Made by a program: the position numbers and the translations under genes
Assembly (NCBI RefSeq): GCF_000424625.1
Contig: NZ_AUKG01000002.1
Location: 682,001 to 746,000, forward strand
Direction: 5' to 3'
DNA: 64,000 nucleotides
Origin: Conexibacter woesei Iso977N
GTDB lineage: Bacteria; Actinomycetota; Thermoleophilia; Solirubrobacterales; Solirubrobacteraceae
Shown here: positions 12,574 through 25,128 of the stretch, in pieces
How the letters are laid out: every line of letters starts with the position of its first letter
Position numbering within the stretch: the stretch's first letter is position 1
Notes under the pieces: model-generated
The model's database searches: none
What the model was told of the DNA's origin: nothing
The model's input: the letters and a program-made list of their open reading frames with translations, nothing else

Positions 12574-12580
12574 ACGTTCA

Positions 12581-12636
12581 TGCGCCGAAGAGGACTCGAA
12601 CCTCCACGGGGGAATCCCCCCCACAAGGCCCTCAAT
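12581..12636 (-). repeat. Island left end: displaced 3' half of tRNA-Leu (att direct repeat)
   Basis: A partial tRNA-Leu without its 5' half. From 12577 to 12611, 35 bp are identical to 25039-25073 (T-arm, acceptor 3' strand, discriminator A). A 17-bp block CCCCACAAGGCCCTCAA (anticodon arm) follows. The variable arm differs in sequence and by one base but still pairs (G-run with C-run), so this copy came from a slightly different tRNA-Leu allele. The acceptor 5' strand, D-arm and a complete anticodon stem are missing. Together with the intact tRNA at 25043-25128 it brackets a 12.5-kb insertion. Confidence 0.85.
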
Positions 12637-12819
12637 CTTTCAGAACGGGCTCGGCGCCCGATGGCTTCGCGGATTTGCGCCCGTGTAGGCCGCTGAGAGC
12701 GGTCCTCGTCGGTCCAGTGTGTGGGGCACGGTGTGGGGCACGAGCGACGGCTGTCGGCTCCATTCCGGGATGCCGGCGCCCGAGGCACGCACCATGCATC
12801 GTGCTCGCGTGTACTCCGC

Positions 12820-13389
12820 TCAGCGGCTAGTCGTGCTGAATCCGCGGGGCTCGGTGCACAGCACCACGCTGGTCCTGCGTGTCGGCATCGACGGTGGCAG
12901 CGTTACGCCGTTGGACTCATGGAAGCCGACAGCCCTCAGCAGCGCCACGGAACCAGCATTGCCGCCATCGATCTCGGCCCACACGCGAGTCAGGCCAAGC
13001 GGCCCGAATGCCCATTCAAGCGCCAGCTCAACGGCAGCCCGGGCGTAGCCCTGGCGGCGACAACCGCCCAGGACCCAGAAGCCGATCTCTGCCTCGTCAT
13101 GAGAGCCTTCGAGCGCGTCTAGTTCCAAGGAGCCGACTGGCTCCCGGTCCGCTGATCGGCAAATGGCAAGACCGATCCCCGCGCCGGCCCGTGCCCGTCT
13201 CGCTGCCTCGAACACCATCTCGTAGGCAGTCTGGGGGCTGTCGACCTTGAGGTCCTCGGCCTGCTCGCTCTGAGCCACGACCTCCGGAGCGTTGAAGCCC
13301 TCGCACAACCATTCGGCATCGGTACCGTGCCACGCACGCAGCGCCACTGTCTCATCAGCCAAATCATCCGGTACCGACCATGCACTCAT
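12820..13389 (-). CDS. GNAT family N-acetyltransferase (RimJ/RimL-like)
   Basis: 189 residues. The GNAT core is clear: the beta-4 strand and acetyl-CoA loop in EIGFWVLGGCRRQGYARAAV (R/Q-x-x-G-x-G/A motif A variant RRQGYA), then helix ELALEWAFGPLGLTRVWAE and the motif B segment DGGNAGSVALLRAVGF. The profile fits RimJ/RimL-type protein or small-molecule acetyltransferases. Substrate unknown. It is the outermost cargo gene at the island's left end, transcribed toward the end. Confidence 0.82.
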   Translation of the reverse strand: MSAWSVPDDLADETVALRAWHGTDAEWLCEGFNAPEVVAQSEQAEDLKVDSPQTAYEMVFEAARRARAGAGIGLAICRSADREPVGSLELDALEGSHDEAEIGFWVLGGCRRQGYARAAVELALEWAFGPLGLTRVWAEIDGGNAGSVALLRAVGFHESNGVTLPPSMPTRRTSVVLCTEPRGFSTTSR

Positions 13390-13690
13390 CGGCGCCGGAC
13401 TGTGTCAAGCGGTGCGGACAGCCCGCGCCCGCCCGGCGGCCCACGCCACGCCCTGTCTTGCGAGACGTACGTCGTCCGCGACGGCCCCGTGTCGTCCTCG
13501 GCGAATCGCCGTCCAGAACCGCTCCGGCGCCGACGCGTCGATGCGCCGCCACCTCACGATCATCGCGACCGCGCTGACGAAACTCACCGTCGACGCGCGC
13601 GCGGCGTAGCGATCAGGCCCACGCTCGAGCACGACGGCGGCGTTGCTCCATCGAAGCTGCGCGTGAGCAGCCGTGCCGTACGTTCATGTG
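13390..13690. other. Unresolved spacer in the island
   Basis: About 300 bp. A 75-codon frame on the minus strand (13405-13632) begins with a hydrophobic stretch (STVSFVSAVAMIV) and then turns basic. It has no recognisable domain or ribosome site, and overlapping frames on the plus strand look no better. I do not call a gene. Confidence 0.3.
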
Positions 13691-22847: not shown

Positions 22848-24871
22848 TGGGCATCACCAAAGTGCAGCTCGCTGAAGCCGTCCTCGTCGCTGAATCGCAT
22901 CGTGAACGACGGGCGGCGATCGAGCTCATCTTGACGAGCGATCGCCTGTTCGAGCATGTGCAGCCGATCATTTCGGACGGTGACATCGACCTCAGCGGGA
23001 ATCGCTTCGGTGTACGCCCTCACGAACTCGTCCTGCTCGAACCGGTAAGCCGTCTGGAGGATGTCTTCGATGGTGTCTTGCTCGGCGATCTCCGCGGTGA
23101 TCGCGGCGTTGAGCCACGCGAACCGCGCGTACCGCAGGAGCACCGCCGCCGCCAGCGTCGGTTCCGGCTCCCACCCGACCACGCCGCGAGCAGCGGGTTC
23201 AGCGAACATGTAGCGGAACCACGCCTCGCCGCAGCACGCGTCGGCGCGCAATGCCTCCAGGGCCGTTGCGAGCGCGTGCTCGACGGTCAGCCTGGGGTCT
23301 TGAAGGTCGATGGATGCCGCGAGCGCGTCCGCCCGCTCCGGGTGACGCTCCTGCGCGTCGCCGCCGGACGCGCGTACGAGCGGCATGATCGACCGCTTGA
23401 GGCGCCACTCGGCGTCCTCGCTTCCATGGTGCGTCCTCAGGTACTCGTCGAACTGCGCCTCGGCCTCGGCGTAGCGGCCGGCGAGAAGAAGCGCGTCAGC
23501 GTAGAGCGCGCCGGTCATCCCGGTGGCGCCGAGCTCGATCGCCCGAGCGTAGCTAGTTGCGGCCTCCGCAAATCGCTGCCCTTCGAAGAGCGCGCCGCCA
23601 AGGTCCTTGTGGAAGTAGGCACGCTCGGCGTATCTAGGCTCCAGCTCGAGCGCTCGCTCAAAGGCTGCGACCGCCGCTTCGCTGTTGCGGGTGCCCTTCT
23701 GGAGCATTCCGATGTTGTAGGCCTCGGCACCCGCGTTGGCTCGCTCGCCGCGCTCCAGCCGCCGGTCAAGACGCCGCTGCGTGACCTCGATCGCCAGCTG
23801 ATGCTCGGAGGCCGACATCGGCGCCAGCATTCGCGTGAGCACGAGGAAGGTCGATCCCGCAAGCCGGATGTCGTCATCGTCCGAGGCGTCGAGGTCATCG
23901 GCGAGCTCGATTGCCTCGCGGATGCGGCGCGCATGCGCCATGGCCGAGCTGAGCGGGATGCTCGCGCCGAAGTCGCCGATCGCGGCGCTCGTCCGGGCGA
24001 CGGCCGTCGTTAGCTGCGCGGCGATGTTCGTCTGTCCGACGTTGGCCAATGCAACCGCAATAGCCAGGACGAGATCGGGACCGAAAGTCGGTGATCGCGG
24101 TGCGTCAGGGTCGCGGGGCAGCGTGACGCTGGCGACGTCGGCCAACGTTACGCGCGTGGACCGCTGTCCCAGGAGGACGGCCGGCTCGTCGCCTGCGATC
24201 TCGTCACGGTGCTCGACCGCGATGAGGTCGGTGACGGGCTTGACCGCTTCGCGCAGCCCGAAGGTGACGGACAGGGCGTCGTCTACTCCGGCATCGGCGT
24301 AAACGGCGACTCGGAGCGGAAGCGGGAGTGCAGGGCTTCGGAACGCGTTGAAGCCGCGGACGCCGGCGTCGAGTTGCTCGGGCGTGTCGTCTTGCCAGGC
24401 GTCGGCCTCGACGAAGCGCAGCCCCATGGTCTTGGCGTCGGGGGCCAGCGGCTTCCCGCCGCGGGCAACCGCGTCGTAGGCATGCAGCCATTGCTGATAG
24501 AGCTGCCTCGTAGGAGAGTGGTACAGCACGACCAACATCGGGGCCGGAAGCGCTTTGTAGTACTCGACTGTCGGAAGATCGAACCGAACGCCGCCGCGCA
24601 ACGCGGACGCCAGATCCTGTTCGTCGGTCGACTTCAGCTGCACGTTGAACGTCCGCCCGGTTCGCGCGCCGTGCACGAAGATCTCGACGGCTACGTCGAC
24701 GCCATAATCGGGCGTGACGTCCCGCCCCACCCAGGCGACCGGGAGGGCGTTGTCGAAAGCGCGCCGCGACTCGGTCTCCAGTTCGTGCTCTCGGGGACGC
24801 TGCACGCGTCCGAAGATACGAGCCGAAGCCGTCGGAAACCGCGGCGCGCCTCGCTCCGAAGTTCCTCGCAT
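22844..24871 (-). CDS. DUF4365 (PD-(D/E)XK nuclease-like) protein with TPR repeats
   Basis: About 675 residues. Near the N-terminus a DUF4365 domain: DNALPVAWVGRDVTPDYGVD, then VAVEIF...GRTFNVQLKST, the D...Q-x-K pattern of this restriction-endonuclease-like fold. The centre and C-terminus are tetratricopeptide-like helical pairs (AEAYNIGMLQKGTRNSEAAV, FERALELEPRYAERAYFHKD, AEAATSYARAIELGATG, LLLAGRYAEAEAQFDEYL). DUF4365-repeat fusions are frequent in defence islands, where the nuclease-like part is thought to act on nucleic acid and the repeats to sense. The start is uncertain: ATG 24871 or GTG 24805; further upstream the frame runs into the island's att region. Confidence 0.68.
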   Translation of the reverse strand: MRGTSERGAPRFPTASARIFGRVQRPREHELETESRRAFDNALPVAWVGRDVTPDYGVDVAVEIFVHGARTGRTFNVQLKSTDEQDLASALRGGVRFDLPTVEYYKALPAPMLVVLYHSPTRQLYQQWLHAYDAVARGGKPLAPDAKTMGLRFVEADAWQDDTPEQLDAGVRGFNAFRSPALPLPLRVAVYADAGVDDALSVTFGLREAVKPVTDLIAVEHRDEIAGDEPAVLLGQRSTRVTLADVASVTLPRDPDAPRSPTFGPDLVLAIAVALANVGQTNIAAQLTTAVARTSAAIGDFGASIPLSSAMAHARRIREAIELADDLDASDDDDIRLAGSTFLVLTRMLAPMSASEHQLAIEVTQRRLDRRLERGERANAGAEAYNIGMLQKGTRNSEAAVAAFERALELEPRYAERAYFHKDLGGALFEGQRFAEAATSYARAIELGATGMTGALYADALLLAGRYAEAEAQFDEYLRTHHGSEDAEWRLKRSIMPLVRASGGDAQERHPERADALAASIDLQDPRLTVEHALATALEALRADACCGEAWFRYMFAEPAARGVVGWEPEPTLAAAVLLRYARFAWLNAAITAEIAEQDTIEDILQTAYRFEQDEFVRAYTEAIPAEVDVTVRNDRLHMLEQAIARQDELDRRPSFTMRFSDEDGFSELHFGDAQ

Positions 24872-25010
24872 GCCGTAGACGTGTACTTCATCGAGTTGGC
24901 GGCAACCGCGGCGTGGGCTTCGTTCGCAAGCTCGTTTGTGGGGCACGGGCGTGATGCACGCGCTGCCCGGCCTCAGGAAGGCGGTCTGCCGCTCCGAACC
25001 CCGGAATGAA

Positions 25011-25036
25011 GAAAGCCCCGCAATCGCGGGGCTTTC
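25011..25036 (-). terminator. Terminator after the intact tRNA-Leu
   Basis: Stem AAAGCCCCGC / GCGGGGCTTT around AATC-type loop; read leftward it ends in a T-rich tail. Located six bases after the tRNA 3' end. Confidence 0.75.
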
Positions 25037-25042
25037 TCTTCA

Positions 25043-25128
25043 TGCGCCGAAGAGGACTCGAACCTCCACGGGGCAATTGCCCCACAAGGCCCTCAACCTT
25101 GCGCGTCTACCAATTCCGCCACCGGCGC
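25043..25128 (-). tRNA. tRNA-Leu (anticodon GAG)
   Basis: An 86-nt class II tRNA. Acceptor GCGCCGG pairs with the 3' TCGGCGC, followed by discriminator A; CCA is not encoded. D-arm GGCGGAATTGGTAGACGC; anticodon stem CAAGG/CCTTG with loop TTGAGGG, giving anticodon GAG; long variable arm GTGGGGCAATTGCCCCG; T-arm GGAGGTTCGAGTCCTC. Its 3' half is duplicated at 12577-12636, marking it as the integration site of the island. Confidence 0.93.

Follow-up and report, generated by a model that had tools for sequence, protein, structure and literature searches.

A probable decayed CIME-like element with a divergent IetAS pair at the tRNA-Leu(GAG) gene of a Solirubrobacteraceae chromosome

A 12.5-kb segment beside the tRNA-Leu(GAG) gene of Conexibacter woesei Iso977N (genome G000) is most probably a decayed, CIME-like integrative element in a Solirubrobacteraceae chromosome, with an IetAS pair as its defence/addiction cargo; we place the probability of this reading at about 0.85. 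The term CIME reportedly comes from Pavlovic et al. 2004. It denotes a cis-mobilizable element, and its definition has been reviewed (PMC5704250). As in a CIME, attachment repeats stand at both ends of the island beside a tRNA gene, integrase and transfer genes are absent, and the whole forms part of a multi-layer accretion at a single site; the island differs in that its assignment, made from sequence, is a putative one. It lies in the window, the entire 64-kb stretch of DNA that was analysed (G000:C2:682001-746000), within a genome of 5.7 Mb in 9 contigs, and its cargo consists of eight ORFs (Table 1). What is new is one more CIME-like tRNA island with a divergent IetAS pair; both kinds are already known, and the island is a good but ordinary example of its kind.

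Both ends of the island are readable, as the preliminary description had stated. The intact tRNA-Leu(GAG) gene (25043-25128, minus strand) is the only tRNA gene that ARAGORN places in the window, and the displaced 3' half with its terminator marks the other end. In a whole-genome comparison (E 7e-30), about 12541-12640 aligns with 25004-25100 over 99 bp at 90% identity, which ends within the tRNA anticodon stem. The 35 identical base pairs and 17-bp block described earlier fall inside this repeat, which is larger, includes the terminator and starts near 12541 rather than at 12577. The lower GC content claimed for the interior is borne out, at 67.1% for the island vs 72.2% and 72.5% for the left and right flanks. 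Island genes have GC3 values of 0.68-0.86, vs 0.93 and 0.96 for the two adjoining flank genes; a wider, mechanically picked set of 40 flanking ORFs has a mean of 0.88 with a standard deviation of 0.13, so that individual genes are less distinctive than the block as a whole. Direct repetition of the 3' part of the tRNA at both ends and a composition contrasting with the flanks are features of tRNA-integrated islands. Outside the island, GC content dips locally to 64.5% at 51001-52000 of the window.

Table 1. Island features and cargo genes, in window coordinates
Feature	Position	Strand	Evidence or remark
Displaced tRNA-Leu(GAG) 3' half with terminator	12541..12640 (approx.)	+	Attachment repeat far from the tRNA; former chromosomal 3' end
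TGTGGGGCACG-g-TGTGGGGCACG tandem, putative arm-type sites of an integrase	12720..12742	+	Exact 11-mers at 12720 and 12732
GNAT acetyltransferase, 189 aa	12820..13389	-	Pfam PF13302, E 5e-21
460-aa protein, no assigned family	13673..15055	+	C-terminal Y-[DE]-HRSRD-[LV]-H-x-GI
393-aa protein with hydrophobic stretches	15120..16301	-	Uncharacterised
IetA-like AAA+ ATPase, 322 aa	16480..17448	+	PADLOC IetA E 1.7e-68
IetS-like S8 (subtilisin) protease, 847 aa	17441..19984	+	PADLOC IetS E 2.3e-24; Pfam Peptidase_S8 E 3.5e-35
317-aa protein, two C-terminal Cys4-type zinc motifs	20540..21493	-	Sub-threshold zinc-ribbon matches
344-aa rare protein, no assigned family	21813..22847	-	Start overlaps end of DUF4365-TPR gene by 4 bp
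DUF4365 (PD-(D/E)xK-like) + TPR protein, up to 700 aa	22844..24946	-	Pfam PF14280 E 3.7e-12
Lone TGTGGGGCACG, putative arm-type site, tRNA side	24937..24947	+	Exact match
Intact tRNA-Leu(GAG) with terminator	25004..25128	-	tRNA-proximal attachment site; ARAGORN

The linkage of tRNA-Leu(GAG) to lexA is conserved in 29 of the 29 other relatives examined, and two same-genus genomes have near-empty sites of the kind that marks a tRNA island. A LysR-type gene (Pfam LysR) stands 0.9 kb from the tRNA in G006 and about 3 kb from it in G003, each genome having a single tRNA-Leu 3' end. The ancestral left neighbour of the tRNA is the block around this LysR-type gene, and not the saccharopine-dehydrogenase-like gene ending at 12341 that the preliminary description had proposed for the empty site; homologues of the latter lie far from the tRNA in relatives, and it was rejected. 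In G001 the orthologous LysR block ends about 71 kb from the tRNA, and in G002 about 19 kb. In G000 it occupies C2:641.7-646.5 kb, about 60 kb to the left of the tRNA, so on its left the island adjoins no ancestral neighbour: it forms the layer of a hot spot nearest the tRNA, its left flank lies inside a larger variable region, and about 48 kb of further variable DNA stands beside the island. Because its GC content is normal, the left flank is probably an older layer or has been rearranged from elsewhere. At 7501-7885, the window is 92% identical to a piece within the hot spot of G001 (G001:1828065-1828447), more than these two genomes usually share, which suggests recent exchange or shared island debris.

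Relatives carry further traces of integration at the same gene. The sister genome G001, whose tRNA-Leu(GAG) is identical at 88 of 88 bp, has two displaced 3' halves of this tRNA, about 16 and 21 kb away and cut at the same tRNA position; one of them is 89% identical to the 206-bp left-end region of the island, arm tandem included. A tyrosine integrase lies within about 0.7 kb of the tRNA-Leu(GAG) in G017 and likewise of its 3' end in G025, where a displaced copy is found 10 kb away; in G415, a displaced copy lies 52 kb from the same tRNA. The displaced copies detected all stop at roughly one point, in the anticodon arm, and a crossover near the anticodon loop is probable. G001 also holds a 164-bp repeat (91%; L039:10519-10680 and 18210-18373) that resembles the 3' half and terminator of a tRNA-Val(CAC)-type gene in displaced form; between its copies, directly beside tRNA-Leu(GAG), lies a 7.5-kb segment with P-type ATPase / PPK2 / SulP genes, so that the hot spot probably houses a second kind of element. 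In the case of G009, two full tRNA-Leu(GAG) copies are present, one beside lexA and the other close to a tyrosine integrase where a contig ends (G009:C233:7699-7846 and G009:C461:1325-1442); this doubling may be an effect of assembly or strain mixture.

Just inside the two ends lie the only three exact copies of the 11-mer TGTGGGGCACG in the 64-kb window, for which about 0.1 copies would be expected from base composition. Two copies form a tandem, spaced by 12 bp, about 80 bp inward of the left repeat, and the right copy is some 60-70 bp inside the right terminator; such repeats would be arm-type integrase sites. The same tandem, slightly degenerate in one case, stands 80-90 bp from the two displaced tRNA copies of G001. 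Arm repeats in G415 are of CGTTACCAC type, and those of G025 are of GTTGTCA type, unlike TGTGGGGCACG. At L039:7762 of G001, a single TGTGGGGCAC was weighed as a possible element end and discarded, since it falls within a coding sequence and away from any tRNA. In G301, which belongs to another family of the order, a tRNA-Met terminator is followed, some 50 bp downstream, by the same arm-like tandem, CGTGGGGCACGGTGTGGGGCACG (L092:8233-8399, G301:C89), because of which arms of this type may have more than one tRNA target.

The integrase itself is gone, in agreement with the earlier claim: no ORF of the island has a Pfam match to an integrase or relaxase, and the PF00589 matches listed for the genome all lie outside it. 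Since the integrase is absent while repeats and arm motifs persist at both ends, the island is CIME-like. In the reading favoured here, a tyrosine-recombinase element would have recombined with tRNA-Leu(GAG) near its anticodon stem-loop, the presumed crossover point, giving the tRNA a new 3' half and terminator and displacing the old 3' half by 12.5 kb; the integrase gene would have been lost afterwards. As no integrase relic is visible, we can only infer this loss, and a trans-mobilised element that never had an integrase would look identical. The island could be an integrase-less satellite, not decayed at all, which relies for excision and insertion in trans on an integrase encoded by another element with the same TGTGGGGCACG arms. 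Arm motifs and attachment repeats are well preserved at both of its ends, the displaced end of the same type in G001 has no integrase listed nearby, and the same tandem motif recurs downstream of the tRNA-Met terminator of G301. We nevertheless regard a satellite as unlikely: the order yielded no integrase with this arm type, the tandem at up to two mismatches occurs in only four of its genomes, with one copy inside an ordinary coding region, and the integrase genes of G000 itself are far away.

A mere local rearrangement or tRNA pseudogene, with ordinary chromosomal genes between the two copies, is far less probable still. The region has been rearranged, as the ancestral neighbour no longer forms the left flank. 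Against this explanation stand the low GC content of the block, a cargo that same-genus genomes lack, and the displaced tRNA copies, accompanied by arm repeats, that other genomes also carry at this tRNA; the near-empty sites in G006 and G003 contradict it. Insertion is supported by the repeats, the arm motifs, these near-empty sites and the integrases that adjoin the same tRNA in relatives.

Of the cargo, only IetA and IetS give strong PADLOC matches, so that calling the island defence-like, as was done at the outset, is firm for these two genes only; the other six are unclassified or weakly suggestive. As in the IetAS systems known from pTiC58 (ietAS), SGI1 (sgiAT) and the PADLOC IetA/IetS models, an AAA ATPase gene is followed by an overlapping S8 protease gene, similarity is full-length and the catalytic triad is intact. 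The two genes are adjacent in an operon-like arrangement and overlap by 8 bp, as in a Rhodococcus plasmid; the TTG start of ietA at 16480 was chosen from Rhodococcus homologues. IetA has both Walker motifs (GPPGTGKT and LFDEFDAL), and the IetS triad D291/H324/S572 is conserved in 5/5 homologues compared. The island pair differs from the described ones in its distance (36% identity to Agrobacterium IetS, 52-61% to the nearest homologues) and in that its activity is a predicted one. IetA is 67% identical to Rhodococcus plasmid homologues and 72-74% to those of Solirubrobacteraceae; for IetS, the corresponding values are 52-53% with Rhodococcus plasmids and 58-61% with two genomes of the same family. 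Both proteins fall far short of the NCBIfam equivalog cut-offs (192 of 510 bits for the ATPase, 48 of 900 for the peptidase), and the pair is, as judged from these comparisons, a divergent homologue rather than a curated NCBIfam equivalog. A PDB search at E 0.001 gave no sequence relative of IetS. Among 329 genomes of the class, 5 carry IetS-like genes, this one counted; the IetS-like, 460-aa and 344-aa genes are each absent from the same-genus genomes searched (G001, G002, G003 and G006).

By analogy with the described systems, IetA would restrain the protease IetS in the normal state. If phage infection or loss of the island upset this balance, the freed IetS would harm the cell, and the pair would act both as an abortive phage defence and as an addiction module retaining the island. 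In SGI1, sgiA and sgiT, 50% and 36% identical to the pTiC58 pair, are an AAA antitoxin and a subtilisin toxin that stabilise the element (PMC5006074). This precedent, together with the many homologues on plasmids (438 records; in 371 plasmid records, an IetS-like sequence spans 80% or more of the query), would also fit a toxin-antitoxin addiction module that only keeps the island and has no anti-phage role. We consider such a restricted role possible, if rather doubtful, since IetAS is catalogued as an anti-phage system by both the PADLOC and NCBIfam models and is regarded as one in the literature, where Pf phages and prophages with IetAS correlate with phage resistance by an unknown mechanism (PMC11878078).

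The overlapping genes for the DUF4365-TPR protein and the 344-aa protein may form another, nuclease-based defence module. In the former, PF14280 spans residues 59-157, TPR matches span 410-513, and a D..VQLK motif is seen in the translation. It shares an N-terminal DUF4365 domain with nucleases of defence loci (the PADLOC pAgo-associated REase and PDC-M02A models) and differs from them in its long TPR region and its overlapping 344-aa partner gene; its PADLOC scores are weak, with E 1.5e-5 at best. The 344-aa protein has no family match in PADLOC, NCBIfam or Pfam and no homologues in a plasmid search, and its AlphaFold model (pLDDT 35) was too poor for a fold search. Homologues occur in 2 of 328 other genomes of the class (3 of 329 counting this one), and two pattern-based scans of one genome per species (84,980 species), by which distant relatives may have been missed, returned no more than these same two. 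One lies beside an ApeA (HEPN) gene in G287 and the other beside a gene for a 468-aa protein without known family in G134, a genome assigned to the family of G000, neighbourhoods that suggest a defence role. That 21813-24946 encodes an undescribed two-gene anti-phage system, with the 344-aa family as an accessory or sensor common to several defence modules, is a speculative proposal that we hold to be improbable on present indications.

The remaining cargo is less readily classified. The 460-aa protein has no Pfam or PADLOC match; its C-terminal motif, carried also by two homologues 44-49% identical to it, is Rx4H-like and reminiscent of HEPN RNases. Assignment as a HEPN RNase was not confirmed, with no Pfam match and a negative profile comparison with ApeA. 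Its AlphaFold model (pLDDT 38, only residues ~10-70 reaching 58-81) was too poor for a fold search and is unreliable over the HEPN-like motif region. Meanwhile, the 393-aa protein has no convincing family match in PADLOC, NCBIfam or Pfam, and the 317-aa protein has a weak PHROG HNH match over its zinc region (E 3e-4); plasmid searches with these two returned no homologues.

The island identifies the lexA-linked tRNA-Leu(GAG) gene as a hot spot of repeated integration, apparently in Solirubrobacteraceae. For this little-studied actinobacterial group, it supplies readable attachment and arm sites of the elements that use it, as well as a small set of candidate defence genes from a lineage that is scarce in defence surveys.
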